This document shows, piece after piece, positions 15,301-38,800 of a DNA stretch of 48,840 nucleotides. The notes under the pieces were generated by a model. It saw only the letters and a program-made list of their open reading frames with translations, was not told the DNA's origin and did not search any database. Position 1 is the first letter of the stretch, and each line of letters begins with the position of its first letter. Made by a program: the position numbers and the translations under genes. Origin of the DNA: Saccoglossus kowalevskii (taxonomy: Eukaryota; Hemichordata; Enteropneusta; Harrimaniidae); the NCBI RefSeq assembly GCF_000003605.2, contig NW_003124896.1, forward strand, positions 103,776 to 152,615, written 5' to 3'.

Positions 15301-18300
15301 TTTTTAGAGGTATATCAAAGGGGGACCGGCCAAGAAGGATGAATGGCCGCTACTCGACACCCCTGTTGACACCTTGAATAAGGTAGCCGTCACCCATTGC
15401 ATCTCAGTAATTGACGGACAGTAGGTGTTAAGTTATCTCATTAACGGTTGGTTAAATACACTATGCAACAAAACATTAGTCTTTGTACTTCAAAACTGTC
15501 GTCAAAACACAATAGACATTTTGAGAGCCATCCAAGTACTTGCGACTTGGCCAAATAGCGACTTACCGAGGCAAGACTTAGCGAGGGGTCACTGTATATA
15601 TATATATATATATGGTTAGGGGATATAGTACTTTAAAAACTTTCAAAGTGGAAATGCAACCTTAAATTAGTGCTTGCATAGCATTAATTATTTATTTACT
15701 TTCTAAAGCCTATATGTAATGTAAAATTATATAATTGTGATCCAAACCCAATCAAGAGATTATTAACAAACATAAAATAAATTTGAAACTTTTGCCTGAA
15801 AGTTTTTAGAAGTGCAGAAAAAGTTAAGACAATTTGCTAATGATTAGATTAGTCTGTCATGTTGCTTGTGTTATGAAATGTTGACAATTAGTATATGGAA
15901 TGTATTACATACAGTTAGGTGATAAGATAGTAAAAGTATTTACCAGAGTTTAAATGTTTCTCTAAACATAGGAGTAATTTGAAATCTGTTGCAATTAAAA
16001 TAATTGAAAATATTTGAATTGAATGAATGAATTTGGTGATACTGCTGATGGGAATGCCTGGTGACGGGTTACTTAAGAGACATCAATGTTGTTTGATTTG
16101 TAAACATCATTCGTCCTTTTTCTGCTTTAACATGAACAGATATAGGAAAACAAGGTGAGACTCAGTTGTCATTTACATGTAGCGAAATATGTGATACATA
16201 GGTCAAAGGTCACTTCAAGTTTTATTGACCTGACATATTAGGTCGTAACTAGTAGTATGTTTGTAGATTCAATCAATGATAAAATGATTACAAACTTAAA
16301 GTTTTAAATGTTTATGATCAATTTTGAATAACACTTGTTTGCCTCACATCATGCTTAGCCTAGAATCCAGCCATTCAGAATGCCCTTCCTAGTGCACTCA
16401 AAAATGACTGCAGAATTGGCTGTCTCCATGACTTCATTAGATTACCATGGGAACTCGCATGCAAATACTGACCCGTATGTTAGGCACGCTCACAGCCCTC
16501 AAGACTGAGTCATTCGTCTAATATTCAAAGATTAAGATCTCACGATAGTAGACGCACTAAATTTACATCATGTTAGGACATAATGGCAGTTGATTTGACT
16601 CTCTTTATACTATAATTCTTAAACTTTCTCACAAAAAAAGTATAAATGAAATCAATTGCATAATAGTAAATGTTTGGGGATTTAGTTCTATATGTCCTCA
16701 TCTGTCACCACTGGTAAGTTATGGAATGGAATTACAGTAAGGATAAAGTTTCAGGCAAGGGAATGTTTGATTTAGGTTAAAGTGTTCATATCAACATTAT
16801 TTAGGTTCAAATACTTCAGTGGGAACTTGATGAGACTTGCTATGTTTTACTTTTTAGAATTTCTATTTTATGACTCCATTTATATCTTAATTTCCTGAAA
16901 TATTAGTCTGGCAGAAATTACGCATATTTGTCACTTTGGATTGGCATGCTCCAACTAAGAAAATGTTGGATCACCGTACAGTTTAAAATATTAATCTTTA
17001 TTAAGTTTGAGGATAATTCTAACATGGTATAATTTTGTTGATTCATCTACAGTGGTTTTGCTGGTACAACATCGACAACAACAACACCAAAACCAGACTT
17101 CTCCAGCAGTCATAGTTTCCTTGAACCAGAACCTGGTCGACAATGGGAATCGTTTCTTGGTAATCGGTATTCATCGTCCCTGGCAGCGGCTGCACTGGTT
17201 TTACAACAGGAAGCAGATCGATGGGAAGATGAAAACAACGCTATAGTGAAAGTCGCCAAAACGATGTCTGGCCAGATGTATGATATGGCTGACTTTAGTA
17301 GAGGCAAGGGATCATTAACAGTAAGTCTAGTGTCTAGCCTTTTCACCACCAAACTTTCTTGCCCAAATTATTTTTTAAATAGTATTTTTGGAAATGAATT
17401 GTAATTTTCAGTTTGTTTGTTTTTGTCCCAATCTTCTGAAGGAAAATGCAGACTATAAACTGGACTATTTTATGTGAATTTGTGATGAAAAAACTAAACC
17501 AATGTAAAATATCTAAAATACTATTTATTTCCTTTAATATTAATGCAGATATAGTTATAGGTTATAGTGTTGCTGTTGTCATTGTAGGTTGAATATGATG
17601 TGTGCATGTTAGGTTAAAGAACTCTGTTGGCAAGGTCAAACTTGTTTCACTGTGTTATTTTATTAGTGATATATGGTCTAATGTAGTCTAATGAAAAGTT
17701 TGAAATTTGATAATTAATAGTCGTCATTAAATCTTAGAACAGTTCCTTCCCCTTCTACAGTATGGATATCTATATTTTTATTATATATTTCACAATAAAA
17801 CTAATTTTGAATAATGGACTTTACAGAGCAAAGAGGAAGTTATCAACACAGCTAAGGCCATTGCAGCTAATGGACTGGTTATTGTCAGATTTGCCAGAAT
17901 TATTGCAAAATACTGTGTGGATAAAAGGTAACTATAGCAACAAATCTTTTAACTAATCATATACATATAAGGCTTCTTCAACTATAATAATTTATTTTTC
18001 GACTACTTCTATAAATTTATTTGCTGAATCAATTAAATATTTACCATACTTTTCACTTGAATAAAACAGTTCATTGAAATTGTCTGCTTTCTGGTGGACT
18101 TCATCCACTGCTGGTCAACATCACCACTATTTAAAGATGCAACATGGACAAAAACATGTAATTTATAGTATTGTTGTTTGATACTGCTGCGCGTTGGTCG
18201 ATACTCAATACTGTCTTTGTGCATACTTCGTGCATAAGTTTAGAACAGAATTAGCGAACTAGAGTCCGGTCAAACCCTGATGGCAGCCATTTTTGTTTTT

Positions 18301-19681
18301 ATTATTAGAGAACCGCTTACACACGTAATCATTCCATATTTGGAATTCGCATTTTCTTATATGGTAGGATGAAAATACCCTGTAAAATACCGCAAAATTA
18401 CGGCACACTGTAACTTTTGGTGACAGATGTATAATAATATGATTTATTTCAGAAATGAAAACACCGTTCTTTACCACACATCTGGGTATTTGTTTGATAA
18501 AATGAAGTAATTTTTTATAAATATAAATATGCACTGGTTATTTTGGTATGTACAAAAAACGATCACTGCATATGCATATTGAGTATTTTTCTCATTTTCC
18601 ATTTAACTAATGTTTTTGTGTTAGTTTACAGTCATAATCTAATTTGTTCATTGACACACAGTACCAAATAGTAACACTAAAACAAAATACTGCATCTTTA
18701 AAACTGTTACTCATACATGCATATGCCACAATTCAATTCGAATTCCAGACCCCCCCCCCCCCCAAATCCTGCATTCGTCCCTGTCTATCAAACAAATGAA
18801 TATAAAATGATTTTGTTGGGTATATTCTATTTCTTTGTAGATTCTGTGAAGATTTATTACACTGTTGTGAACAGATTCCGTCCTTTGGTAAACAACTAAG
18901 CATTATTGCTAGTGTTAAAGCAGCCACACCTGAAGACAAGAGTACTGATGTTGTCCTGGTTAAAAATTCTGAAAATCTCATGCAGGCAGTGATGAAAACA
19001 TTAAAAGCAGCGGAAACTGCTTGTGTCAAGGTAAATTATATTTCAAGTTTTAATTAGTTGTATTCGAACAAAACAAGGTTGTCAAAGGCAAAGTTGCTTT
19101 ATTTTTACTTTTTATTGTAGTTATTAAAGTTACTGTATGAAACAATGGCTTTTGTGGTTTTGGGATTTATTTGATGGCACATTTTATTATTATTTTAAGA
19201 TTTGCCATTTGTGTAGACTTTACACTGAAATGGCTGTTGAGAACAAGTGAGTCACATGGCTTGGTTTTTCTCCAAACTGGTGTTCCATTCCCATGGTTAC
19301 ATAGGTCTGCGTAACAGTGAACTCAATGATGGTAGTAAATGGAACACTGTTAGGGAGGGGGGGGCAGTAAACTTGTGCCAATTTGAATGCGAAATATTTT
19401 AATTGCCTGAATTTCATAAAAGTAATTTGTGATATTGATTAACAATCACTGAAAGTTCATGTTTTCGTTGCGTCTGTTTTCATAAGGGTTTACAAGAGCC
19501 ACCTGAAGAAGAGACATGTGACGAAATGCAAGCAACGGCTTTAGCCATACAATGGAAGAGAAAATTTGACAGACATCGAATGATTGAATCAAGTTATACA
19601 GAAACTGACGACTTAGGGCTGAGGATTGTTAACAAAAATATAACCGCACCAACATTGACAGAGATATTCATTCCTAGATAG
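185..19681 (+). CDS. VCL-like: Vinculin/alpha-catenin superfamily gene, 3' part, 23 exons
   Basis: Family members are helical-bundle proteins that couple cell-cell or cell-matrix adhesions to actin. I joined 23 exons by GT-AG sites and the phases agree throughout, giving 1,410 residues to the TAG at 19679-19681; the start is left of the window. Numbering from the first visible residue: head-like helical bundles 1-417, linker with SKPIPDF repeats 418-507, second helical block 508-984, Pro/Ser/Thr linker 985-1160, tail 1161-1410. Family signatures include DIIDDMTDPKTFLDIS, the vinculin-tail-like CVDKRFCEDLLHCCEQIPSF with IIASVKAAT, and NSENLMQAVMKTLKAAETAC. The segment DMADFSRGKG also resembles alpha-catenin. 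With at least 1,410 residues it is longer than vertebrate vinculin (1,066). Vinculin-like is preferred because of the linker plus tail order; alpha-catenin or alpha-catulin relatives are alternatives. Confidence 0.85.
317..1836 (+). other. Introns, nothing further recognised
   Basis: The introns on either side of exon 2 (317-1209 and 1357-1836) are AT-rich, with short homopolymer runs. I see no repeat family, RNA gene or extra exon in them. Confidence 0.5.
1210..1356 (+). CDS. Vinculin-like exon 2
   Basis: Acceptor follows a T-rich tract (tttgccag), donor gtaaga; 147 nt, phase 0 to 0. Encodes EFEAMMEGVVRHSMAVASVS, matching the pattern of helices in the vinculin/alpha-catenin head where a hydrophobic helix is followed by HxMAVAxVS. 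Confidence 0.8.
1837..2067 (+). CDS. Vinculin-like exon 3
   Basis: Acceptor ttgttcacag, donor gtacgt; 231 nt, phase 0 to 0, 77 codons. The peptide is helical with heptad-like hydrophobics (KLQNDFKDLEKLVNQSL) and ends DRLIKTSISHVK. No domain boundary is obvious. Confidence 0.8.
2210..2289. repeat. Short degenerate tandem repeat
   Basis: Four imperfect copies of tttacatctcattag in the intron before exon 4, spaced about 20-25 bp. Confidence 0.7.
2706..2835 (+). CDS. Vinculin-like exon 4
   Basis: Acceptor tttttatgcag, donor gtgagt; 130 nt, phase 0 to 1. Encodes LEESFHDYSDKIIQLGGFIA and then SCVDKR, the loop that ends a helix in vinculin bundles. The last codon (Arg) is completed by the next exon. 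Confidence 0.8.
3151..3360 (+). CDS. Vinculin-like exon 5
   Basis: Acceptor ttacatatag, donor gtatca; 210 nt, phase 1 to 1. Holds VRHLRSTVSQLENLDPEIYP and the clearest family motif, REWHNEICILVDIIDDMTDP, corresponding to the W...L...(V/I)D helix of a vinculin repeat, followed by KTFLDIS. Confidence 0.88.
3677..3874 (+). CDS. Vinculin-like exon 6
   Basis: Acceptor tttctgtgttgtag, donor gtatgt; 198 nt, phase 1 to 1. Begins ESSIKSDIRECRESI, as in the vinculin D4-type helix that follows a LLDxSE motif, and continues with NQLLGRAKRIVQVAKKVVDN, the classic family helix. Confidence 0.88.
3909..4040. mobile_element. MITE with TTAAAGgCGG ends, copy 1
   Basis: Left end TTAAAGGCGGCAGTCGTCG, right end CGACGACCACCGTGCTTTAA. 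The ends are inverted and both carry TTAA, the usual piggyBac target. Similar elements lie at 10417-10563 and 47367-47527. No coding sequence inside. Confidence 0.6.
4254..4457 (+). CDS. Vinculin-like exon 7 (end of first head-like block)
   Basis: Acceptor ttgtttatttcag, donor gtgagt; 204 nt, phase 1 to 1. Encodes LVQNSAYEAVSLIHHARLHD and LLERCELLLQCVSRVKMGLD. In vinculin the equivalent helices stand directly before the proline-rich hinge. The basic end RSKKKPVIS leads into the repeat linker. Confidence 0.85.
4723..4992 (+). CDS. Vinculin-like exon 8: linker with 21-residue repeats
   Basis: Acceptor tatcgtttcag, donor gtaagt; 270 nt, phase 1 to 1, so skipping keeps the frame. Contains two full copies and one partial copy of a 21-residue unit (core SNMYLSKPIPDF, then NEESFRSS). 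The exon is Ser/Pro/Asn-rich and probably disordered, and it occupies the place of the vinculin hinge. The repeats are close copies at DNA level (63-bp period), so the expansion is recent. Confidence 0.85.
4993..6320 (+). other. Large intron between linker and second helical block
   Basis: A 1.3-kb AT-rich intron. Apart from the MITE at 5660-5845 I see no exon or RNA gene. Its neighbour 6496-7229 likewise holds only a MITE (6612-6826). Confidence 0.5.
5660..5845. mobile_element. MITE with TACCGTtAAATCTGTATTA ends, copy 1
   Basis: Left end taccgttaaatctgtatta; right end taatacagattttacagta is its near inverse. Interior text such as gacaattgagagccgaaaat recurs in the copy at 22415-22569. Ends in TA suggest a Tc1/mariner-type non-autonomous element. 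Confidence 0.7.
6321..6495 (+). CDS. Vinculin-like exon 9
   Basis: Acceptor tatatttctgcag, donor gtaagt; 175 nt, phase 1 to 2. Opens the second helical block: LNVPLYYLNPVTDLLKAISN, then a segment ending KLPSDQHTIK. Confidence 0.8.
6612..6826. mobile_element. MITE with TACTGTA..ATAC and ttttcgct ends, copy 1
   Basis: Contains tttcgct/agcgaaaa inverted arms and attccag words shared with the cleaner copy at 27119-27321. The right end is less exact, so the boundary is approximate. Confidence 0.55.
7230..7473 (+). CDS. Vinculin-like exon 10
   Basis: Acceptor follows a long T tract (tttttttcag), donor gtaagt; 244 nt, phase 2 to 0. Carries GQEWAKYVCELEAIIQHMM, a second copy of the W-centred vinculin-repeat helix also present in exons 5, 12, 13/14 and 16. 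Confidence 0.85.
7742..7946 (+). CDS. Vinculin-like exon 11
   Basis: Acceptor ttttgggatacag, donor gtatga; 205 nt, phase 0 to 1. Helical: NSHVELLHHLVSMAMEVSTN, then HAQLVQRHANELSKLTQEVN. Heptad pattern fits a four-helix bundle. Confidence 0.83.
8276..8700 (-). mobile_element. Foldback/MITE family, copy 1
   Basis: Contains catcctaccatataaggaaa and ccaaatatggaatgattac, plus a foldback part in which AAGTATGCAC...GACAGTAC pairs with GTACTGTC...GTGCAT and gttattatgagg mirrors aataacctc. Three other copies: 18176-18432, 20866-21196 (opposite orientation) and 32740-33066. Confidence 0.75.
8965..9193 (+). CDS. Vinculin-like exon 12
   Basis: Acceptor tttattttatcctag, donor gtaagt; 229 nt, phase 1 to 2. 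Third W-centred repeat helix, KIQLWSVKCFELMHGLDRI, followed by DDLESQVKDMAAYSTKISDM. Confidence 0.83.
9745..9901 (+). CDS. Vinculin-like exon 13
   Basis: Acceptor ttctttctccatag, donor gtaagt; 157 nt, phase 2 to 0. Helical; its end IAIIQRQWALK begins a fourth W-centred helix completed in exon 14 (IKLLESVIDEL). Confidence 0.83.
10417..10563. mobile_element. MITE with TTAAAGCGGG ends, copy 2
   Basis: Left TTAAAGCGGGAGGG, right CTCCCTCGCTTTAA. Same family as 3909-4040 and 47367-47527; TTAA at both ends. Confidence 0.65.
10940..11039 (+). CDS. Vinculin-like exon 14
   Basis: Acceptor attctatattcag, donor gtaggt; 100 nt, phase 0 to 1. Encodes IKLLESVIDELSNG and a helix LVGAALAVNQAKG. Short, but frame and sites fit both neighbours. 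Confidence 0.8.
11280..11700. repeat. Minisatellite, about 150-bp unit, diverged copies
   Basis: About three diverged copies carrying gatatcttcaattct, tgaatatttttgtcatt and gacttcttgttaaaaac. It is the reverse complement of the 157-bp array at 42738-45020, so both arrays have the same orientation relative to their host gene's transcription. Confidence 0.8.
11811..12011 (+). CDS. Vinculin-like exon 15
   Basis: Acceptor tatttattacag, donor gtatgt; 201 nt, phase 1 to 1. Encodes YQNYADELSAKVSKARQDCN and VDMLCKLTPQILAQGRNMA, two helices of the second block. Confidence 0.83.
12166..12285 (+). CDS. Vinculin-like exon 16
   Basis: Acceptor gttgcttatttcag, donor gtacta; 120 nt, phase 1 to 1. Fifth W-centred helix: HLKRQWACNAHQLVRTLLDI. 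This closes the second helical block. Confidence 0.83.
12515..12995 (+). CDS. Vinculin-like exon 17: Pro/Ser/Thr-rich linker
   Basis: Acceptor tttatttatcttgtag, donor gtacct; 481 nt, phase 1 to 2. Starts with the end of a helix (VINVFRTLRDTTMQDVTLSL), then becomes Pro/Ser/Thr-rich and probably disordered. It includes HPPIPKATPYLP, a possible SH3-type PxxP stretch, and many SxSS/SP sites. This is the second linker and stands directly before the tail, like the vinculin hinge. Confidence 0.85.
13111..13212 (+). other. Exon-like segment after AG, paired with 13438-13469
   Basis: After atgatatcag the phase-2 frame reads R-SPPPQDCPHVNSKSIQ and stays open to TAA at about 13210. A related copy begins at 13438 (R-KTPPQDVISMSNL, stop). 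Both could be alternative last exons or decayed cassette exons of the linker. Confidence 0.3.
13320..13390. mobile_element. Fragment of MITE with cccagtgaa...TACAGTA end
   Basis: Shares gcgaaattaaaacccagtga and the tttacagta end with the complete element at 45168-45313; the other end is not visible. Confidence 0.5.
13438..13469 (+). other. Exon-like segment with stop, related to 13111
   Basis: Good acceptor (ctctttgcatgtgacag). Phase 2 reads RKTPPQDVISMSNL, then TAG. The stop overlaps the TTA target duplication of the neighbouring MITE, so if it was once an internal exon the MITE may have ended it. Confidence 0.3.
13470..13915. mobile_element. PIF/Harbinger-like MITE, 446 bp
   Basis: Perfect 27-bp terminal inverted repeat starting GGGACGACGTCAAAAGATCG, extending imperfectly to about 40 bp, flanked by TTA on both sides (13467-13469 and 13916-13918). 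A TTA target and GGG-starting ends are typical of PIF/Harbinger. No transposase coding. Confidence 0.85.
14213..14242 (+). CDS. Vinculin-like microexon, 30 nt
   Basis: Strong acceptor gttttgtttcag and donor gtaagc; 30 nt, phase 2 to 2, adding ten residues (about SPHRTQPITI). It is in frame whether used or skipped, so alternative use is likely. Confidence 0.65.
15010..15592 (-). pseudogene. Tigger/pogo transposase fragment with one terminal end
   Basis: On the minus strand, 15157-15228 encodes ARDLAVGESTIRGWVKYEEK, a CENP-B/Tigger-type helix-turn-helix. Positions 15010-15111 encode DNDDIDKAVYIWFLQERS and SGPITQCK, matching the Tigger motif (L..AVY.WF.Q.RS, ISGPI...K). Stops and frame changes separate the blocks and the DDE catalytic part is absent. 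The right end reads (minus) CAGTGACCCCTCGCTAAGTC next to TA, as expected for a pogo-type terminus. Confidence 0.8.
15595..15613. repeat. (TA)n microsatellite
   Basis: Short TA run directly after the Tigger terminus, which is the preferred TA target. Confidence 0.9.
15656..17052 (+). other. Rest of the linker intron
   Basis: AT-rich sequence. Apart from the 15-nt microexon candidate at 16140-16154 I recognise no gene, RNA or repeat family. Confidence 0.5.
16140..16154 (+). CDS. Vinculin-like microexon, 15 nt (candidate)
   Basis: Acceptor after ttctgctttaacatgaacag, donor gtgaga; 15 nt, phase 2 to 2, adding about RYRKT. The phase match with both neighbours supports it, but so short an exon cannot be proven without cDNA. 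Confidence 0.45.
17053..17320 (+). CDS. Vinculin-like exon 20: start of tail
   Basis: Acceptor gattcatctacag, donor gtaagt; 268 nt, phase 2 to 0. Thr/Ser-rich start, then ALVLQQEADRWEDENNAIVK and VAKTMSGQMYDMADFSRGKG. The last block corresponds to the first tail helices of vinculin and alpha-catenin (MADFxRGKG-like). Confidence 0.88.
17827..17927 (+). CDS. Vinculin-like exon 21: tail
   Basis: Acceptor ggactttacag, donor gtaact; 101 nt, phase 0 to 2. Encodes SKEEVINTAKAIAANGLVIV and RFARIIAKYCVDK, matching the vinculin tail helix that ends xAKxCxDKR. Confidence 0.88.
18176..18432 (+). mobile_element. Foldback/MITE family, copy 2
   Basis: Carries ccatatttggaattcgcatt, tatatggtaggatgaaaata and gtgacagatgtataat in the same order as the copy at 20866-21196, and the gttggtcgatactc part of copy 1. 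Located in the intron before exon 22. Confidence 0.75.
18750..18763. repeat. Poly-C run
   Basis: Fourteen C in a row, about 80 bp before exon 22. Confidence 0.9.
18841..19030 (+). CDS. Vinculin-like exon 22: tail
   Basis: Acceptor tatttctttgtag, donor gtaaat; 190 nt, phase 2 to 0. Encodes FCEDLLHCCEQIPSFGKQLS, IIASVKAATPED and NSENLMQAVMKTLKAAETAC, the most vinculin-like part of the gene (CERIP..QL..L..VKAT and AQNLMQSV in vinculin). Confidence 0.92.
19487..19681 (+). CDS. Vinculin-like last exon with stop
   Basis: Acceptor ctgttttcataag, stop TAG at 19679-19681. After an acidic stretch (PPEEETCDEMQ) comes AIQWKRKFDRHR, placed like the basic Trp-containing end of vinculin. It is followed by about 33 further residues ending TEIFIPR, not part of the vinculin pattern I know. 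Confidence 0.85.
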   Translation, partial: GLQEPPEEETCDEMQATALAIQWKRKFDRHRMIESSYTETDDLGLRIVNKNITAPTLTEIFIPR

Positions 19682-23674: not shown

Positions 23675-23811
23675 TTAATATAGATGATTTATATTACGAG
23701 GAAATCCTGCTCCAGTTGACATAGGTCTGCCACCATTCATTTGTTGGTTTCCATAAGTCCAATTGTCAATGTCTATCTGTCCAGCAGATGCTGGTATATC
23801 CATTCCACTCG
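23675..23811 (-). CDS. Prominin tail exon 5, long-isoform stop
   Basis: Acceptor ttttttattattag; phase 1 in; stop TAA at 23675-23677. Encodes SGMDIPASAGQIDIDNWTYG and ends FPRNINHLY. Polar, no known domain. Confidence 0.7.
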
Positions 23812-26800
23812 CTAATAATAAAAAACAATCATTTTTAAGGGAGTAATCTCTATTGCACACTGTGTCTGCCATATTCAGCAGTAGTCATTCGCAAGTCATT
23901 TAAATAAAGCATGTACTTCAGTAAAGAGCTCAATCCAGTACAGTATGTCTATTAAGTATTTTGCATTGGAGGTACAGTACAGTACAGTCAAGAAGTAAAT
24001 CTGATATGGTTGGCATATACATGTAGGGCACATTTTAACAAACTTGCCAGGATGAAAACTAGTTTGCAAGTTCACCAGACTAGCACAAACTTTGACAGGA
24101 TATTAAGTACTGTGCTGGTCAACATTCTGTTTTAGTAGGATATTCAGGGATGGAGACATATTCTGGGGACGGAGATACGTCACAGAATGTTCTATGTTGC
24201 TAAGACACACACCACTGTATTTCTATGACCTGCTGTGGAACGCCGGTCGAAGAGCCAGTGAAAAAAGCTTATGACCAGAAAACTGCACAAACTCAATTCT
24301 GAAGCAAACCTGAGCAATCAAATTTATATATATTGCACATGTAGGGGTAATCTTGTTACACTGTTCAGGGGAGTCTCAACATCTAGCCTAAAGTACAGTT
24401 TTCTGAGAGTTTTCGACCATTGTTTTCACCGGTTGTGATTGCCTGGTGGAGATAAATGCTTGGATGTGCGCTCCTGAGAATACTGTAGTTCAATTCTAAG
24501 GGGTTGTTGATAAATGCTTGGATGTGCGCTCCTGAGAATACTGTAGTTCAATTCTAAGGGGCTGTTGATAAATCATGCGTATAGCAAATTAAATCTCTTT
24601 GTTTAGAAGGACGGGGTTGAAGGTGATTTCAGTTACAAAAACTGCACAGAGTTGTATTCAATGTTTGTTTCATTTGTTAACACTTGCAAACTTTTATTTG
24701 GGGGGGGGGATAAAACAAAAAGATTGCGTTTGCTATATGTATGTTTTAATTATTCATCGCCCCCACCCCCACCCCCACCCAGAAGCACACAAACTAAAAA
24801 TTGAAATACCATAAAAACAAGACAAATACTAGAAACCAGGTTAAAAAGATGATAAAATAGTAGCAGTATTTTATCGTCTTTTTAACCTGGTTTCCAGTGT
24901 TTGTCTTGTTTTTATGATATTTCACTCCGGCTTCTTCAAGACATTTGGATCCACTTGGCACTAAGTGCCATTTGTGTTTGGAGTCACTTGTATTTGATTG
25001 TATTTGATAAACTAAAAATTATATTTATTGCATATTGTATCATTAAATTATGACTTAGTTGACATGGAAACGCCTTCATTTACATAAAATTCATACACTA
25101 CCAATAAAGCACATGTGGACAGTCTGGTTTAATGTATTTGAGAAGTGAAATAGTATCTCATACCAGTACAATGGATAGAACAATGCATCCATTAGGAAAA
25201 CATTTCAAGTCAGTCTAGTACTGGTACGGTACATAATGGTCATTGTCAACACCAGGTCAATACTGGTTCAAAACGGTATATGTACTACATCCTAGTCTTG
25301 GTGCAACATCCACAAGTCTAAGAAAATAATCCAGGATCATACAGGACAAAGGTCACTTAACGTAAACACACAAAGCATGCCAATATCATACTGCACTCAT
25401 TTATAATGAAGATAATTTAACAAAATGAACACTTAAATAAAAATAAATGAAAATGAATAAAGGACTGTGCGGGCACATTTGGCTGTAAGACATGGTAAAT
25501 ATTTTCTACATTAGGAAAATAATTTTACAATGTACTAGTATAAAAAAAAAGCATATTACCAGGATGCTCGTAGTACAATGGGTTACGTGTTGCTTTAGCT
25601 GGTTTGAGGTAGTTATAAGACTCACTGTCTTCTAGTGAATCATAATAACCAGAGAGATGGTGATGATGATCTGGGGCATTCAAGTCATTCTGCTCATCAG
25701 TTTGTTGGCTATACCGTTGAAATGCTGATGGTTGATGATTAATGTATGGTCTTGAACGATCACTGTAATCTGCTATGGAATGCAATGAAATGAGAACAAA
25801 TATGCCATGCAAAAAGCAAACACAAAATGGTCATTGAAAGATAATGAGATTTTATAACAGTGGATATAATGTCAAAAAGTTTGAAATCACAATTACATTT
25901 TACCAAATTTGTCTCAATGCATGAATCGCATTAGGTTAATAATTGATTAGCCTGGTTATAAAACTTTGATTAGCAAAGTAATCATCTAAATTAGCTTGAA
26001 AAATACATGATTCATGGTATTGTAGAGCAGCTCAGAAGAATTACTATTTATGGCTTCAAAACACAATTCATTCCATCTCCCATTGTTAGCCTGCTGGATA
26101 CATGGTCTGGGAATATTCTATAATACATAGCTAAAACCAACACCAGGCGAAGCAGTTCATTTCCAGATAATGCTTAATTTAGTTTCCCTGATAATATTTT
26201 GAATTTAGTGTGCTGCACAGTAGTATGATTCAAAGATATACAAGTAAAGGAATGCAACTTTTATAACCTGGTATGACGACATGGAACAAAAATACCAGAA
26301 AATTATTAGGCCAAGTGAAATTGTACATATGTCGCACAAATAATATCCTGCTCACAAGGAGCTATCCAAATATATAAATATATAACTTTATGAACTGGCA
26401 GATTTATGTTATTAATCAGACAGTGCCTTGATTTTTAAAGCTTGGTGTCAGTAAAAAAAGTTTCACACACAAACAATTTCTTCAGACAGGATATTCTATA
26501 GCAATGTTTTCACAAATCATTCAAGAATTGAGCTTATCGTTGCATCAATAATAGACATACTGTAAATGGCTGTTATTTCATAATTAGAACAATTTTTGTG
26601 AATGGGGGGAGGGGGGGTGACAGTGAAAATTTGACTGTCATTTCGCAAGAATCGCAGTGACTTCCAAGAAATTTGATACCACTTTCATTTAGTGGATTGC
26701 CCTTAAACAATTAAATCACAAAAATGTTGAACAATGAAAATTACACAATTGTTTTATAGTTCTACGATCATACAAATCTCAAAACAGCATAGAGATTAAT

Positions 26801-29800
26801 TTGTTAAAACAAAAGATATAGAAATGAAATAAGGTATTAGTATTTACAGTTCCTGCAAGAAAAAGCTAGTTTAGTTTTGTGCTATATTTTCTTTGATATT
26901 TGAGACTGATATAAATATCTGAATTTGGGTTCATAATTTGATATACGTCCCTGAATCACAATGTATTAAGTTTCAGTTTGTTGTCTTGCATATACCGTAC
27001 TTTCAAGTTCCATTCTCAGATGACATTCCCAAGCACTGATATTTTCCTGTTATTATACACATATTCAATGGCATGAATATGTGGAATATATACTATCGGT
27101 ACAATGCATTGAATGATATACTGTGGAATACTTTATTTTCGCTGGAATTAATTTTCGCTGAAAAGGCTTTTTGGGCATTTTGTATGGAATTTATTTTCAC
27201 TGATTTTTGATGAGTTTAATGTGAAATATAGGAAAAAAAGTATATTCGCTGGATTTTACTTTCATGGAATCATCCCTTCAGCGAAAATAAATTCCAAGCG
27301 AATATAAAGTATTCTACAGTATTCAAATTGAGATCAAGTCTGAGAAGCATCTTCCGAACAACTGAATTTTGTTTTGGCTACCCATTTGGTTTGTTAATGT
27401 TGTTTAAAAGTCATTTTCAAAAACTTATGAATAATGTTCCAATGCACACAGACTCCTAACAATGTGCCTTTGTTCCAAATTATTACAATAATTGGGTTAA
27501 TTCCCAGAGTTGCACAATAAATGTTGTATAATTATCCATAAACACCTGGTCTTAAGAAAAGTATCATCTTAAGAGTAGAACTTGTAGAAGTAGAGTAGAA
27601 TTGCTAAAAAATACTTAATATAAATGTGAAATTTTAATATGAATTTGATATCAGTCTCATATCACCAAAATACTGTAGAACACTGTTTTTAAGTAATATT
27701 TTTATGAAGGCACGAATGATGGTATTGTATGTGCTGTGCTCTAGAGCCTAGGATTCAAATTAAAAATATATTGCTGCAAGTCAATACACTGTTTTGCGTG
27801 TCAGTTTTGTAATTCCCAGAATGCTAATAAACTTTCTTTGGTTCAGCTTTGACAGTTGAAGCATGCTCAGTGAATTTTGAATAAATTTGCATCACTAATA
27901 AGATAAGCGACCATTAATTCAGAAGCATTTTTAGATCTGCCTTGCACATACTCTAGGCTAATCTGTACAAGACAGAAGACAAAACTTAACATTTATTAAT
28001 TTGTCAAAATGCCATTTTCAATTATCACAATTCACCATCAAAATAATCTACTTTGATAACTGAGTGTTCTTGAGTATCAGCAATCCACCACCAGGAAAAG
28101 TGAGACTGGCTAAAGAGAATGAAAGATAAAAAGTTTGAACACCATGACTGGAACTAAATACCGTTAGATGTATATGGCAATACCCGGTGTTGATATGCTG
28201 CTGGAATACCTCTACCTTGATGACCATCTAAATGACAACAAACAAACAAAATTATGAAAATGAAAATGCAAATAAAAACATAAATATGCAAGCATATAAA
28301 CTGAACCTAAGATACAAAACAAACTAAGAAAAGAAAACGTGCAGTTTTAACAGAAATAAGATCAACGAAAGCAAAAGCGTTTTTCAAAATTTATTTGTTT
28401 ATTAATCTCAAAAAACAAAACATCATATCTAGTTATTACAAATAAAATTGATTTAATAGAAATGATTATCAACATCTTGTAATTTTTTTCTTCTTTAAAT
28501 TTAGATATGATTTCTGTTGTTGTGCTGCACCATAGTTATCACTTTACAAATGTAAATTACCTTCAAATTAAATGATACCAGGGAATTCATTTTCTTATTT
28601 AGAATGCTGTGTTTTAAGCTAGTCAAATTGTAGATGGTTCTGCCTAACATGCAGATATTAACATATTGAATGCCAATTTCCTGAATATAAAATGGATTCA
28701 CCCTAGAATCCAGAAAAAAGAAAACATGTCTTAATTTTGATGAGCTGCTGTCATGATATTATTCAGAATACAGTTTAAATGATGTGAACGAAAAGATCAA
28801 GGACTCAAAGAAACTCTAGATGAAGTAAAACTTATGGCTTACCACTGTACATTAATCTCTCTTATACTTTTACAATGACTGACTTTCCAACTCTTGAAAT
28901 TGCATGGGTACAAGGTTTGATAAACCAAACTAGTACAGCACATTCAACAACAAAAATCTGCCAATTGTAATTAAGTCCAGACAACCCTGGTGCTACAACA
29001 AACTAATTACTAGTACATTGTAATGGATTTAATTATTATTCAAAAAATCTGCATAAATAAATAATTTTACAACACATGAGTAGCCCTTTACTCACAATGT
29101 TTTTGTTTTTTTATCAATCATGTTTTTTTTTATCAATCACAATGTACATTTTTTTTTTTAAAAAGTCACTTGTGTCACAATTCCTGATTAAATTATCTTG
29201 AGAACCAAACATTCAGTAGTGACAGTACAACAACAATAGGCTCCCAAATGAATTTTAAATTTACAAAATATAATTGATTGCCATGGTGATGAAATACAAG
29301 AGCTTGCCTGATAGCATTGGTTGCTATGGTTGTGATAACAGTGGTGAATAACCCAGTTTTGAAATGGATGCAGGATGCTTAAGCAATGGAAAATAATTGC
29401 ATTAAGGGTTAAGATAATATTATGACTTAATACTGTATTTGCTCTATTAGAAGCGCATCTCTGATAGAAGGAAAGTAAAACAAAAATTACATTTACAGTA
29501 TGCTGTATTTTGACACCTCTGTCATTTAAACATAAATTTGTATGCGTTACTAATAAAACAAATACAGTGTGTGGAAAGAAACAATAAATTTTATACATAT
29601 TAAAGGCAACAAAGATAGATAATTTCAGCCTAAAGTAAATGTATTAATTAAAAACATATTTAGAAACAGCAGTACATGAGAATGTACGTGTATTCAAATA
29701 AACAACTGAGGTATTAAAATGAGCTGGGAACTGCTCACCTCAAATGGAGATTTTAGCTTTTAGTCCCAAGATACACAGGTCATAATCACAGTTCGGAAAC

Positions 29801-32800
29801 TGTGTCATAATCAAAGAATTTACCCAAGCAACTACATTATATTAGCTATGTACCAGTCTCAGAATTCTGATATTAGCTACATTTTTGTAATAACCATTGA
29901 TGAAAACTTAAGATAATTTGCTAATATTGCTTTTAAACAGTACCCAGTTTTTTAACACAAGAACTGTACATAACTTAGCTCAGGATATTTAGTTTATTGC
30001 CTGTAAACTTTTATTTGAAGTTCATAACTAAGGAATCAGTAAGCAATATAACTGAGACACGAGTAATGCAAAATGACAGCACCATCCAAAGCTGAGGTAT
30101 TACCTCCCTTACTGCTACTAAAATAAATTATTCATATCTCAGACATCCGATTACTAACTATTAAACATAATGAATTAAAATGCAATCTAAATTTTACACA
30201 TTATTAACGGATAAATGAACACAAATTGGAATTCTGTGTATTTTTGAAAAAATAGTTTATCACCTGCCGATTCATAAAATAAAGGCAGTTTTCAATCACA
30301 TATGTAAAAGTACATCTTAAAAGTATATATTATTTGAAATGCAGTCAAGGATTTACAATTATAGCAAAGCTATGTGGCAGCAAATAAAAGGAAGATTTCT
30401 CTGAATCTATAATTATGGAAGCAAATTCAAGGCAAATTGAACATAATATATAATCACAAATTGATTTCAAATATTTCAAATTTCATTTTTGATTTTTTTA
30501 TAAACTGAAGAAAAATTGCACATTTTATTGACATGTGTCTTAATGTATATCAACACTTGCTACGATGAAAATTTACCAAGATTTATTGGTCTTACATGAA
30601 CTGGTTTGAATAATTATCAGATTTGTTGTTCATTTTTGTTCTCCACACATAAAAGAATTGTCATCACAAATTTGTTTTCCCAAGACTTCCACAAATTCAT
30701 GTAAATGGCTTCTGTAGAAAATTGCTTTTTTTTTTACATTTTTTCGTTCAAAAAAATATATAACTTTTTTTAAATTAAAGTAGAAAAGCAGAATCAGCAT
30801 AAAAAAGAAACAGTAATAACATTAAGAAAGGTGTAAATTAAGTACAATGGAAAACAGAAACTTAAAAACTTGATGTTCTTAAAAATAGAATGCATGATAG
30901 CACATATATAAGCAGAAGAGTATGATATAAAATAATCTGTTTTTGTAGAGGATATAACTTAGAAGTAATTATTAGGTGACACTAACTGACTCTCACCATT
31001 GTAAGGAGGTGGGGGCACTGCACGTGCAGACATCGGGTGATTGTAGGCCATGATTGGATCATCTGAAAAAAAAAATTACAAATTTTCATAAATCTTTTTA
31101 TACTGGTAATTGCTTTGGGCATATCCACTGGTCAACCCTGGCTTGTGCATTCAACTTTCTATAAATGAGTATGAATACACAGACTAAATGTATACTGCCG
31201 ATTGGAGGGCAGTTTTCAGCATGATGGCAAAAAACGAATCAGGATTTATATGAGGATGAACTGTAAATTGTCTCAACTTAGTACGAGACAAAAGCCTGAA
31301 AATTGTATACACTGCAGCTGTGAACATATCACTCTGGCCACAGAGCTTCTTTTAAATTATGATTGCACATGTTTCAAAGATCTACCAACATTCGGACAAC
31401 TACAGAACTAAAAATAACTTTTGAAAACCATAGATTTGATAAGTATGGCAGTTAAAGCTGTTTAGTCACATAAGATAATACAAGTTAAAGTTAGTGGACA
31501 GTTGTAGTCACATGATGAGATAATGTATAGTGTCCACATGATCAAAGATTTTGTTCACATGGCAGTCACATGATGAAAAACTGTGTCCACATGTTGCTCA
31601 CATGATCAGAGTTTGTTCACATGATGAAAAACTGTGTCCACATGTTACTCACATGATTAGAGAGTTTGTTCACATGATGAAAAACTGTGTTCACATGTTA
31701 CACACATGATCAGAGAGTTTGTTCACATGTTTGTAATGTCTGTACCTACCATGCATGTATTGTGGATTAGCATGACCCGAGTAATCTTTATTAGAAGCAC
31801 CATTATAATGATTGGGTTGGTCGTGTACAACAAGATGATTAGTGTCTGGAACAACATAAGAATAATAAATTAACCAAAGAAAAATAATTAACACACATAG
31901 AGAAGAAATAAAGAAAAAGTAATCACCAGCAGCATGCGTCAAATTGATGGTTGTCACATGATGTCACTGGATTTCAGATATGATATATAGCGTGAACCAT
32001 GTTAAGAGAGACACGTATTCCTTCTAAGTCTGGGAATTTTACTTGTTCTGGCAGTGAATTATGGACTGGGGTTCTTAACAAATATTGTCACAGTGCTTTT
32101 GCAAAATATAAAATCTTGTACATTCATAGTAGCAAAAATGTTTACAGTATATATAGAAATGTTAGGTGCAGGGCTTGAACTTGAACTTGAGTTAAGAAGG
32201 CATCAAATTTCAGGGCAGCATTAGCATACAGGATATACTATACGTAAGAGGTGCATGTTTGAAAGGGCACCAAAGCTTGATGCCCCATTAAGTTCAAGCC
32301 CCAAAATTAGAAGCAACAGATGGATGGTTATTACAAAAAGTGGATAAACATCAGTAAATTAAATGTTACATGTATTAGACAATAAAATCAGACTTCACTA
32401 TAAAAAAAAAATGTATAAAATTCTGGCTATATTGTTGAATATATCTGGGAAATTCACAGAATGCCTAATAATATGTATGAGATGTATGCAACCTTCAAAT
32501 ATCCTAGCTTCGTACACATGATATTTTATTGAACTGGTCAATGCTTGCTATTTCCAAAGACTTATAAGATAGTATGCAATTGGTGTTAAGATTATGAAGA
32601 TTCCTTTGAAGTCATGCTAATGGAGAGATGATCATAAAATCAAAATCATAAATTTTTTTAAAAATGACAAGGTAAACGAGTGATTCCGTGAAAGAACTGG
32701 TTAGTCAGTTTCAGACTGTTATTGTAAGTGACCACTATTTTTAGCGCATGTATAACAATTTATTCTGTGAATGCCATATGCTACGGTGCCTGGATTTTCT

Positions 32801-35800
32801 TTTGTATTCCATGGAGTATCTGTATTCTACCATATTAGAAAATGTGAATTCCAAATATGGATTGATTACACAGCATTTCTAAGACGGTGGATGTTTTTGA
32901 GAAGTACATAGCAAGTAATTTTTAATAGTTTTCATCATTGTTCATGTATAATAATGTTATTGCAAGTGCAAAGTATACACTCAGACACTACGCGATTGCT
33001 TCACCCTGTGTTGTGAGAATACTCCGACTGTATTTTATTTGTGTATACTTTGAATAACCTCATATTAAAAAACCTGCCATTGTATCCCCCCCATAACAAA
33101 TTACAGCATGCAATGTATTTTGTGGTAATGCAAATGCCTACCCCTGCAGGAACAAGCAAATTCCAAAACAGAACATTTATCCTCATAACAATGTAATATA
33201 CATCATTGACTTTGTACTCTAAATTATTAAATCAAAAAATGCAATTTCCAGTTGTTTCAGAACGTTCATCAGTTAACAATGAGACACTGAATTATTTATG
33301 TATTGACTAGTTATGTGACAAACATGTGTTATAGACATTTTTAAGATCTGCTCAGTGGCAACAAAATTCTATAACAATACCATGAATAGCATTTACCCAT
33401 CAATTATTAAGATTCTTGGACTGTGTCGTGTTGAGCCACTATTCTGAAATATTTTCTGATCAATTTTGGAAAATCTATGTTACTGTACTGTTATCAGTAC
33501 CAGGTAAGCTGGTACCGGTATATGAATTCCGCTCTTTAAATCCAGTTGGTTGCAAAGTTTATCACTAGACTATAATATCAATACTGTCACTGTACATGGA
33601 AGTACACACATTAATTTTGTGCGAAAAATTATTCTCCAACTTGCTGCTGAACTTATTGAACTGAAAATTTTTTTTTGCTTAATTAATGCATATACATTCC
33701 GGCATTAATGGAAATTAAGGGATACCATCAGCCAACATATTAGTTAGAATTTAGTTTGGTTGATGTTTCCCCCTGTGCAAGACATTAATTTACTTTACAA
33801 AATACCCATTACAATTTATTTAATTCTATCAATATACATCATCTTAAACTTACCTGAAACAGACTATAGTATAAGGGTACACTATAGCCATGTGTACACT
33901 ATAGCCAGGTAGTTACATTACAGCTATGGCATAACTTGTCACTTTTCCACCTCTAATCCTAACTCTAACCCAATCGCTACCCTCTATTGCCCCTCAAATT
34001 AATTGTAGATGACACATACAGTTATCCATAAGAACATATACAACTGAACTGGGGGAGGGGGCTGGAGGCTAGAGGTTAGGGTTACAGTTAAGGTAAGGGG
34101 TAGGGGTATATTGGAGAGTCTTTCCCTGGATTGCAATGCATGCTGATATTGTATAATTGTACAGAATACCATATTTTCCTGGGTGAACAATCTAATACTA
34201 GATATCACATTCTCAACTAAATTATCAAGTATGCAAATTTACACATCATTGATAGCACATGCAGCAATGAAGAGAGACTAAACAGATGCAAAAGTAATAT
34301 CACATTGTTGTGAAGCCAATCTTTTTGTTTATATGAAGAGAAATAAAGCGACAGGTTATGTCACAGTCATACTGTACAACTCTCACACAAAATTTCCAGT
34401 ACCTGGTATTCTTCATCGTTTCTATATTACAAGTCGTGTATGCCATGACAAAACGTTTGGCTATTTTGCACTTCAGTAATTAACTCTTTCAATTGCAGGG
34501 GAACAATTTTGACTGGAGTGCATGTGAATATACGTTACTAGTATGTGTACTGAGAAATAATTTTTAAACTCATAGTTGCTGTCGACATAGGAAGTAAAGT
34601 AAGCAAATAACACCGAATAAACGGCAAGGTAAAGACTATGTCTAATTATAGTAAATACGTACTGCGTGCGTGACTCGAACCGGCGCTCGCGTACGGCACC
34701 TAATCGCCTAGCTTCACGCCACTACACGTCTTCCCCTCGGCCACCGGGCATCCCCAATAAAGGATGCTTAATAACCGAGCTTATTACGTGCAGAGAACGT
34801 GAAACCCGTCCACGCGATACGCGCCACACAGCATGGCCAGAATGCGGCAAAGGCCTTCAGATCTGGCTGTAGTAGGATGGTGAAAGTAATGGTACAGCAT
34901 TTTAACAGTGAATAAGTACTGAGAAATAATTTTTAAACTCATAGTTGCTGTCGACATAGGAAGTAAAGTAAGCAAATAACACCGAATAAACGGCAAGGTA
35001 AAGACTATGTCTAATTATAGTAAATACGTACTGCGTGCGTGACTCGAACCGGCGCTCGCGTACGGCACCTAATCGCCTAGCTTNNNNNNNNNNNNNNNNN
35101 NNNNNNNNNNNNNNNNNNNNNNNNNNNNNNNNNNNNNNNNNNNNNNNNNNNNNNNNNNNNNNNNNNNNNNNNNNNNNNNNNNNNNNNNNNNNNNNNNNNN
35201 NNNNNNNNNNNNNNNNNNNNNNNNNNNNNNNNNNNNNNNNNNNNNNNNNNNNNNNNNNNNNNNNNNNNNNNNNNNNNNNNNNNNNNNNNNNNNNNNNNNN
35301 NNNNNNNNNNNNNNNNNNNNNNNNNNNNNNNNNNNNNNNNNNNNNNNNNNNNNNNNNNNNNNNNNNNNNNNNNNNNNNNNNNNNNNNNNNNNNNNNNNNN
35401 NNNNNNNNNNNNNNNNNNNNNNNNNNNNNNNNNNNNNNNNNNNNNNNNNNNNNNNNNNNNNNNNNNNNNNNNNNNNNNNNNNNNNNNNNNNNNNNNNNNN
35501 NNNNNNNNNNNNNNNNNNNNNNNNNNNNNNNNNNNNNNNNNNNNNNNNNNNNNNNNNNNNNNNNNNNNNNNNNNNNNNNNNNNNNNNNNNNNNNNNNNNN
35601 NNNNNNNNNNNNNNNNNNNNNNNNNNNNNNNNNNNNNNNNNNNNNNNNNNNNNNNNNNNNNNNNNNNNNNNNNNNNNNNNNNNNNNNNNNNNNNNNNNNN
35701 NNNNNNNNNNNNNNNNNNNNNNNNNNNNNNNNNNNNNNNNNNNNNNNNNNNNNNNNNNNNNNNNNNNNNNNNNNNNNNNNNNNNNNNNNNNNNNNNNNNN

Positions 35801-38800
35801 NNNNNNNNNNNNNNNNNNNNNNNNNNNNNNNNNNNNNNNNNNNNNNNNNNNNNNNNNNNNNNNNNNNNNNNNNNNNNNNNNNNNNNNNNNNNNNNNNNNN
35901 NNNNNNNNNNNNNNNNNNNNNNNNNNNNNNNNNNNNNNNNNNNNNNNNNNNNNNNNNNNNNNNNNNNNNNNNNNNNNNNNNNNNNNNNNNNNNNNNNNNN
36001 NNNNNNNNNNNNNNNNNNNNNNNNNNNNNNNNNGAGCGCCGGGTTCGAGTCACGCACGCAGTACGTATTTACTATAATTAGACATAGTCTTTTACCTTGC
36101 CGTTTATTCGGTGTTATTTGCTTACTAGTATGTGGGTTTGGGCTACAGTTCATATGTGAACGCATTTCACATGTCACTCCAATTTCAAGTGTTGATTTTG
36201 GTCAGTGTATGCATCTTTTACACATATCACAATGCAATCACTGATATCTAAATTTAAATTATTTTGCAAATCAGCCAATCGCAAAACATGGAGTACTTTA
36301 TAAATTGCACACTTAGCGTTGTTTGTGGCAATGTACATGTAGAATAAACAAACACACATACATACCATACCGGTATTAAAAGACAAGGAAGGAAGCAACA
36401 ATGTCTATGTGAAAGCACAAAGCAAGACACCAGAAAAGAAAACAGACTTTCAATTATGTGCTGGCAGTTTTACCATAAGTTAGTAGTGCTTAGAATAAAT
36501 AAAAGTGAATTATCACATACAGGCAAAATTAGAAATCAGTTTAGACAGTGTTTGCATTTAATAGTTGTTAGCGCAACACTTGTACCACCCACAGAAATGT
36601 GCCTTTGATATAATGAAATTAACTTTTGTATTCATATTGTATTTTAGATTTCCATTCACAGAAGTTGGTATACTTCAAGGTTTGTGTATTGATATTGAAG
36701 AGCAGAAAAAAAATAAAACATGTGGTGTATATGATAAAAACAATGTACCTACAGTTTTCTTAGACCTAGCACAACCAAAGACATTAACTGGGCATCACAC
36801 AAAACTGACAATGCAAATAACAACTGGTAGATCAAGTGCAAGACAAATTACAAATATAGCTCTTAAAACAGAAAGACAACCTAAAACCATGAGTAAGAAA
36901 GCAACCAAGAGTTCCAAGAAGCAATACAGAGATAGAAAAGCAATAGTAATTAATTTATAGCCTAGTTTAAAAAAATACAAATAATTACGCTTATTTAAAA
37001 TCAAAATAATTTTAAAAAATAAAGTAAAGCAAGCAATTCTATGTTTAACTCATTAGTTAAAATTTAAAAAGCAGTGTAATTATCCATGTTAATTGTAATT
37101 TGGATAGAATAAGAAAGGTTTCACAATAGCACATGTGTTGTATTACATTGGATAATCACAACAAACTCACTGAATATTGGTATGGAAGTATGGTTTTATT
37201 TGAAAAATTAATGAAGATGAAAATATAGTACATGTTCTTTAAGGATTAATATTATTGTATTTTTCAAAAAAAAAAAAATGTTACAGAATTATTGGCAAAT
37301 ACCAAAGAAACAAGAATATGGAATGATGTGTATAAGTACCATTAAAATAAAAACAGAAATAGCATGAACTTGTATTTTTTTTTTTTGTTACAATGTTTGT
37401 TAACTAAAGCTAAGATATTGCTGATGAAGTAAAATTGAAAAAAAGAAAAAATGACAATGAAAAAAGCAGCAATTACAAAGTATATTTTATAAGCTGACTG
37501 GTGAAATGTTTACTAATTGTATTATTATACAGCCAAGTTGTAGATCTTCCCATATAACAGGGACACAGTTGATTTCATTCAAAAAGCAATGTAATCATTT
37601 CTGTCCATCCATAGCTTCCACCAGAATCAACTCACCAGATACAACTCTGTCAAATCTAACTAAACAGAAAGCAACTTGCCCCAAACCAACACGATAATAT
37701 ACACTACCTGGTAATACCAATAACATAACTTATTATCGTACAACAAATTGTTTCAGACAAGGTTGCTCTGATAGGTTAAGAGAAGACAACTGCGAGCACA
37801 TGTTGCAAGGAACTACTGCACAAATCATGACAGACATGCTCAGACCATTGGAAAAGATGCTTTAACCAGAACAGTTCTCTATCACCAAATAACTTCTACC
37901 AACATGTGAACACTCACCATTTGTATGTGTGTGCACATGTATGTGTGTGGTATGGAAAATGGATTCACGAGTTGAGAATGAAAATAAAGTCATGGCAGCA
38001 TGAATATTCTGTACCAATCACAAGAATCACATCACAAGAAATGAAACAATGTTAGTAGTGCTAATAGTGATACCAAAAATACATGAATGAATCAACCTTA
38101 ATGGGAAGAACCAGCCTTTAATAAGGTTACAGTGCTGTAATTTGTACTCTAGCTAGTAATTTATGTACATCTGTGCATAGTCTAACAAAAGCATATCAAA
38201 ACAAAGTAACCTCCATGTATCAATATGAATAAAGGCCTTTTTTTTCTTATCCCAGGGATGGCACTTAAAGTGTCCAGCATATCACAAAGGAATTTCAATG
38301 CAATCCATTGAATAGCTCAATTATGAAAGTAAATTGTTCACACTTCGCAACTTCAAACACTACAATCACCACAATTGTGAGCAAAAACATGCAGCCTGCT
38401 GCATTTGCTTATGATAAATATATAATTATATACATTTTTAACCTGTGTGAAGCTTACTCAAGTTGGCAAGCTCTATGAGGAAACACAAATCCAAGGCACT
38501 TAATATAAATGCAATTTGTATAGTTTCTGTACTTATCTTGATGCTAAATAAGACTTGCTAAATCAAGTAAATCCTAATTTTATAGGCATTTTACTATTTA
38601 ACAAAATGTAAATGTTATATGTAATAATTTCACGATATCTAATTATGAACTGGCCCTTGAAAATATACAGTTCATATATTTCAATAATAATTCCATCTCT
38701 GAATCAAGGCATTTCCCCCTGTATCCTGCCATTTCAAATAAATGCATGATGATTCTTCTTTTCAAGACAAACAACTATCCTGCCCAGACACCACTTGATC

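Follow-up and report, generated by a model that had tools for sequence, protein, structure and literature searches.

The stretch of DNA analysed here, hereafter the window, comprises 48,840 nt of the genome of the acorn worm Saccoglossus kowalevskii (NW_003124896.1), and all bare coordinates below are positions in it. On its minus strand lies an incomplete prominin gene, the 3' part of which falls within the window and the 5' part beyond it, where the next 20 kb consist of N. Exons A to N of the core and five further exons, T1 to T5, which lie downstream of the exon for transmembrane segment 5 (TM5), were set by hand from splice borders and the open frame (Table 1). In a profile search, the encoded protein matched PF05478 with E=3.8e-107 and 359.8 bits, against a curated cut-off of 34.3. 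Immediately behind TM5 the match comes to the end of the profile, and the first 29 residues of the TM5 exon (exon N) align with the profile through its final position. The chain obtained by joining A-N with T1-T5 contains no internal stops. As the original prediction for this locus held, T1-T5 are very probably the tail of this prominin, given the open chain, the matching phases and a convergent neighbouring gene of the vinculin family.

The tail exons have the borders expected of spliced exons, with AG acceptors on T1-T5 and GT donors on T1-T4. These borders, together with the open frame, confirm the proposal that all five exons start in phase 1 and that the first four also end in it. T5 stays in frame, open to its stop, with 16 of the 16 subsets of T1-T4, so that inclusion or skipping without loss of frame is possible, as had been claimed. 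The joined product of T1-T5 comprises 192 amino acids, including 18 Tyr, 18 Asn, 15 His and 19 Pro, which agrees with the predicted tail of approximately 190 residues rich in Tyr, His and Asn. Both docking motifs named in the prediction, PPPPY (T2) and NPLYY (T4), are present, and T1 carries a second NPxY, NPQY, which had gone unnamed. The acceptor of T4 is tandem (25772 or 25769), with CAG just inside it, giving a difference of one codon.

Table 1. Exons and candidate C-terminus of the prominin gene in the window
Feature	Coordinates	Strand	Remarks
Core exons A-N (partial gene)	48838-39129	minus	open chain, PF05478
TM5 exon N, ending at first usable donor, phase 1 (TTTAG|gtgata)	39123-39327	minus	donor score 0.5
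In-frame TM5 exon extension	39122-38938	minus	61 residues past donor 39123 to own TGA; candidate short C-terminus
Tail exon T1	31845-31750 (96 nt)	minus	phase 1-1; contains NPQY
Tail exon T2	31062-30997 (66 nt)	minus	phase 1-1; contains PPPPY
Tail exon T3	28227-28162 (66 nt)	minus	phase 1-1; donor weak (-0.5), weakest of the five
Tail exon T4	25772-25560 (213 nt)	minus	phase 1-1; contains NPLYY
Terminal tail exon T5	23811-23675 (137 nt)	minus	starts in phase 1; stop TAA 23677-23675

Intron phase sets the tail apart from the core as a separate unit. All five tail introns are in phase 1, compared with none of the 13 core introns (P=1.2e-4), 11 of which are in phase 0 and two in phase 2; when the doubtful exon G (see below) is left out, the contrast is 5/5 versus 0/12 (P=1.6e-4). 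Alternative use of the exons is not implied. Symmetric exons are ordinary in the core of this gene, where 10 of the 12 internal exons (9 of 11 without exon G) are divisible by three; thus, the same-phase borders of the tail are no evidence that its exons are used alternatively.

Taken as a set, the tail exons are coding, and T3 on its own is weakly supported. In a period-3 test of base composition by codon position, the tail reached a chi2 of 76.9, compared with 11.2 +- 5.7 in length-matched random stop-free intron sets (n=300), none of which attained the tail value. Its GC content (0.418 versus 0.340) was reached by one of the 300 sets. Taken singly, T1 and T4 were matched by 0/300 random stretches, T5 by 4%, T3 by 17% and T2 by 47%; since the genuine TM5 exon also fails this test (32% of 400 random stretches reach its value), little can be read into a weak result for one exon of such size. 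T1 and T2 draw support from their splice sites: of 200 simulated regions, 1% contained an open phase 1-1 exon with sites at least matching theirs and none contained two, and an exon of at least T4 length with T4-grade sites occurred in 2.5% of the 200; the cut-offs in these simulations are the exons' own values, set post hoc. On the plus strand of the tail region, no exon was found at the T1/T2 or T4 cut-offs. Ten candidates in the region pass the T3 cut-offs, including several nested forms of T4, versus a simulated mean of 1.5.

The TM5 exon itself offers two ways to end. It contains two phase-1 donors scoring above 0, one after 39123 (0.5) and one after 39024 (2.2), on splice-site scores built from textbook frequencies rather than a trained model. 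It also runs on in frame to its own stop, and the period-3 signal of this extension (39132-38941) is reached by none of 300 random open stretches. Downstream of the stop lie ATTAAA at 38122 and AATAAA at 37200. Because the exon combines two phase-1 donors with its own stop, a short tail is possible as well as a long one.

PPxY motifs are ligands of WW domains, NPxY motifs are bound by PTB domains, and tyrosine motifs are bound by SH2 domains. The NPxY, PPPPY and tyrosine motifs of the tail are therefore putative ligands of PTB or endocytic adaptors, WW proteins and SH2 proteins, respectively. When compared with 20,000 shuffles of the tail, PPPPY (P=0.0015) and the occurrence of two NPxY (P=0.012) exceed expectation, any PPxY has P=0.155, and PxxP is at chance level; the motifs tested were picked post hoc. 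Among the best literature matches listed, none described a prominin tail with PPxY or NPxY, or tail exons in an invertebrate prominin.

Other prominins were sought in the same genome (572 Mb, 4830 contigs). Twenty prominin candidates were scored; the counts are lower bounds, and some of the paralog contigs may be fragments of one gene. An intronless prominin on contig C4563 (233634-235925) consists of one open frame of 867 amino acids and is possibly a retrocopy. It belongs to the same family as the window prominin, with 160 of 580 aligned columns identical (28%), but ends in a short tail, FRRMNEEDVYDDGMEMQDKAPSYKSGPPINAYGKNKVDPAF, with a vertebrate-like EDVYDD, whereas the window gene has introns and no EDVYDD. 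Further prominin exons lie on contigs C3811 and C1232. In our reading of C3811, the intron between TM3 and TM4 has the same position and phase as in the window gene. The TM5 exon on C2935 (3996-4111) starts at the same residue as that of the window, in phase 0; it is 116 nt long and has a near-consensus donor (GA|gtaagt), where it ends in phase 2, the phase that vertebrate exon 24 appears to end in as well. The shared intron and the shared TM5 exon start indicate that the core gene structure is common and that it is the stretch behind TM5 that differs in the window gene. Past the TM5 exon of C2935, no convincing tail exon was found among the candidates listed. A weak prominin match on C2733 falls within a simple repeat and was set aside.

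Exon G (45907-45827, minus; 27 codons, phase 0-0) is either facultative or miscalled. The C4563 paralog lacks it, and so, in our reading, does C3811, where the TM4 exon is followed directly by the next exon. At 40381-40669, a tandem repeat (86 bp, 3.4 copies, 98%) takes in the 3' end of exon L together with the donor, and splicing from a later copy of the donor would change the frame. A 53-bp minisatellite (31566-31729) lies just downstream of the T1 donor. Farther upstream, at 34540-36100, copies of one repeat lie on both flanks of the 950-N gap and carry a GGTTCGAGTC box, which we take to be tRNA-like; ARAGORN finds no tRNA in the window.

Alternative tails are already described for vertebrate prominin-1. 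At least 10 C-termini, derived from exons 24-28 plus F27', have been demonstrated or predicted (PMC3047580, Table 1). Exons 26b and 27 are frame-preserving, 28a brings its own stop, and their use is tissue specific; alternative tail exons with tissue-specific profiles are reported from Xenopus (PMC3108902). Some prominin-1 tails carry PDZ motifs, Y828 and Y852 are subject to phosphorylation, and it has been proposed that tyrosines of facultative exons vary prominin-1 signalling (PMC10967083). According to a review, human prominin-1 is ubiquitinated at K848, and this modification controls both its binding to TSG101 and its exosome release (PMC11776279). The tail-swapping idea is thus already known, and the claim in the original prediction that such exons would be a new way for a prominin to vary its partners is not supported (PMC3108902, PMC3047580).

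The window gene resembles prominin-1 in having small exons behind TM5, combinations of which could change the tyrosines and docking motifs of the tail. In addition, prominin-1 type C, made with exon 24 alone, has a short tail, which we take to arise by read-through. The vertebrate tail junctions appear to be in phase 2, judging from Table 1 (junction residues D, N and T, and E when exon 24 is alone; PMC3047580), whereas those of the window gene are in phase 1. Counted from RRM, the tail of human type A is 46 residues long and includes 3 Tyr, compared with 192 residues and 18 Tyr in T1-T5. None of the 10 prominin-1 tails in Table 1 of PMC3047580 contains PPxY or NPxY, and the window tail contains both. 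The EDVYDD site of vertebrate prominins is absent, and the TM5 exon there reads MHKEYPKN. Of the features of a vertebrate-type modular tail, small frame-keeping exons are therefore present, while the phase-2 junction, EDVYDD and sequence similarity are not. In particular, none of 49 comparisons of the TM5 exon end, the extension and T1-T5 with seven vertebrate tail peptides fell below 15% of 500 shuffles, a value given by the TM5 exon end; the best T exon stood at 19%. What is new here is a variant, perhaps independent in origin: a phase-1 set of exons in which no similarity to the tested vertebrate exons could be detected. Five pattern matches to the tail exons in viral contigs were followed up, none of which was confirmed, and a search of the PDB gave two matches at chance level and no prominin.

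On the other side of the tail, a plus-strand gene of the vinculin family (approx. 1200-19681) ends at 19681, convergent with T5; its hand-joined end matches PF01044 (E=8.2e-21) up to profile position 847 of 852. As this is the nearest identified gene, a separate owner of T1-T5 is unlikely, and prominin would be by far the simplest one. It is very unlikely that T1-T5 instead form part of a further minus-strand gene between the two, with prominin ending at 38938. Such an arrangement would be compatible with a TM5 exon that can stop by itself, followed by ATTAAA and AATAAA, and with the long, gap-containing intron between exon N and T1. Moreover, a minus-strand exon scan from TM5 to T5 returned T2, T1 and two non-tail candidates scoring above T1. 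The scan is strict on donors and misses T3, T4 and T5, so an exon could have escaped it. Of the two candidates, however, 37707-37636 (minus, phase 1-1) has a splice pair equalled in 10% of simulations and a make-up unlike that of the tail, and 24828-24773 (minus, phase 0-2) ends in a G-rich run and does not fit in phase; the former was left out of the tail. Also against a second gene, no start exon was recognised in this donor-strict scan, and the phases of the T exons match exon N. A plus-strand open reading frame within the N-T1 intron (36565-36957, 131 codons), preceded by an intron-like acceptor, resembles the terminal exon of an antisense gene; it was dropped as a rival gene, having no Pfam match.

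Granted that the exons belong to prominin, their use and origin may be read in several ways. It is quite possible that T1-T5 are always included jointly once the TM5 exon has been spliced, giving a fixed long tail with no mixing of exons. The strong splice sites of T1 and T2 would suit this arrangement, as does the ordinary occurrence of symmetric exons in the core (10 of 12); in contrast, the tail exons of vertebrate prominin-1 are alternative, and the tandem acceptor of T4 and the weak donor of T3 also speak for variation. This explanation overlaps with the one favoured below, of which the short-versus-long choice would then be all that remains. With regard to origin, descent of the modular tail from a common ancestor with that of vertebrate prominin-1 is unlikely: the position in the gene and the small same-phase exons after TM5 agree, but the T exons show no similarity to vertebrate 26b, 27 and F27' above shuffles, the phase is 1 here and by inference 2 in vertebrates, and the phase-2 donor and EDVYDD, found in one paralog each, are both missing from the window gene. 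Tandem duplication of a single exon would explain the common phase and the make-up rich in Tyr, Asn, His and Pro; it is highly improbable, as the best of 21 pairs among the TM5 end, the extension and T1-T5 (T2-T4) was reached by 10% of 500 shuffles.

The probable explanation is that the locus encodes a divergent, intron-rich prominin whose cytoplasmic tail is made by splicing the TM5 exon to T1-T5, with a choice between a short and a long tail. It is supported by the open chain, the PF05478 match, the periodicity of both tail and extension, the rarity of T1/T2-grade splice pairs, the convergent vinculin-family gene, and the start and phase of the TM5 exon, which are shared with a paralog; in addition, the same principle operates in vertebrate prominin-1. 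Several observations weigh against it. The two donors of the TM5 exon have mediocre scores (0.5 and 2.2), and the intron from N to T1 spans 7.3 kb, including the 950-N gap. The periodicity of the TM5 extension is weaker when it is halved (2.5% and 16% of 400 random stretches reach the values of the halves). T3 alone is at chance level, as an exon of its grade turns up in 72.5% of simulations and 17% of random stretches reach its period-3 value, and it therefore rests on context. Among the motifs, YxxPhi and YxN are at chance level in the 20,000 shuffles. Finally, no relatives of the tail exons were found in viral contigs, vertebrate exons or paralog loci. For T4, its own genome yielded no second copy, and for the 526 bases from 23675 to 24200, the window itself is the only full-length genome match.

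Under the favoured explanation, the TM5 exon would be spliced from donor 39123 or 39024 to T1-T5, and the product would be a long, probably disordered tail bearing docking motifs. NPxY may then engage PTB or endocytic adaptors, PPPPY may engage WW proteins, for instance NEDD4-type ligases, and the tyrosines may engage SH2 partners; T3, and perhaps T1, T2 and T4, would be optional pieces. If the TM5 exon is left unspliced, 61 more residues and its own stop would give a short tail without docking motifs. Most likely, the choice between the two would set prominin trafficking from membrane protrusions. A more speculative proposal, to which we give a rather low probability, is that the locus represents a second origin of a modular prominin tail: in one paralog, the ancestral phase-2 junction and EDVYDD would have been lost, the TM5 exon enlarged, and a new phase-1 set with PPPPY and NPxY acquired. 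Read-through would then switch between the short tail and a long tail that recruits NEDD4/ESCRT and clathrin adaptors, thereby setting vesicle release against recycling.

If T1-T5 prove to be constitutive, the gene simply has an ordinary long tail. If their alternative use is true, the choice of tail would recur across the prominin family rather than being peculiar to vertebrates, and a concrete, testable link to the ubiquitin and endocytic machinery would come from the motif set. In particular, a built-in PPPPY could directly recruit a ligase such as the one behind the K848 ubiquitination reviewed in PMC11776279.

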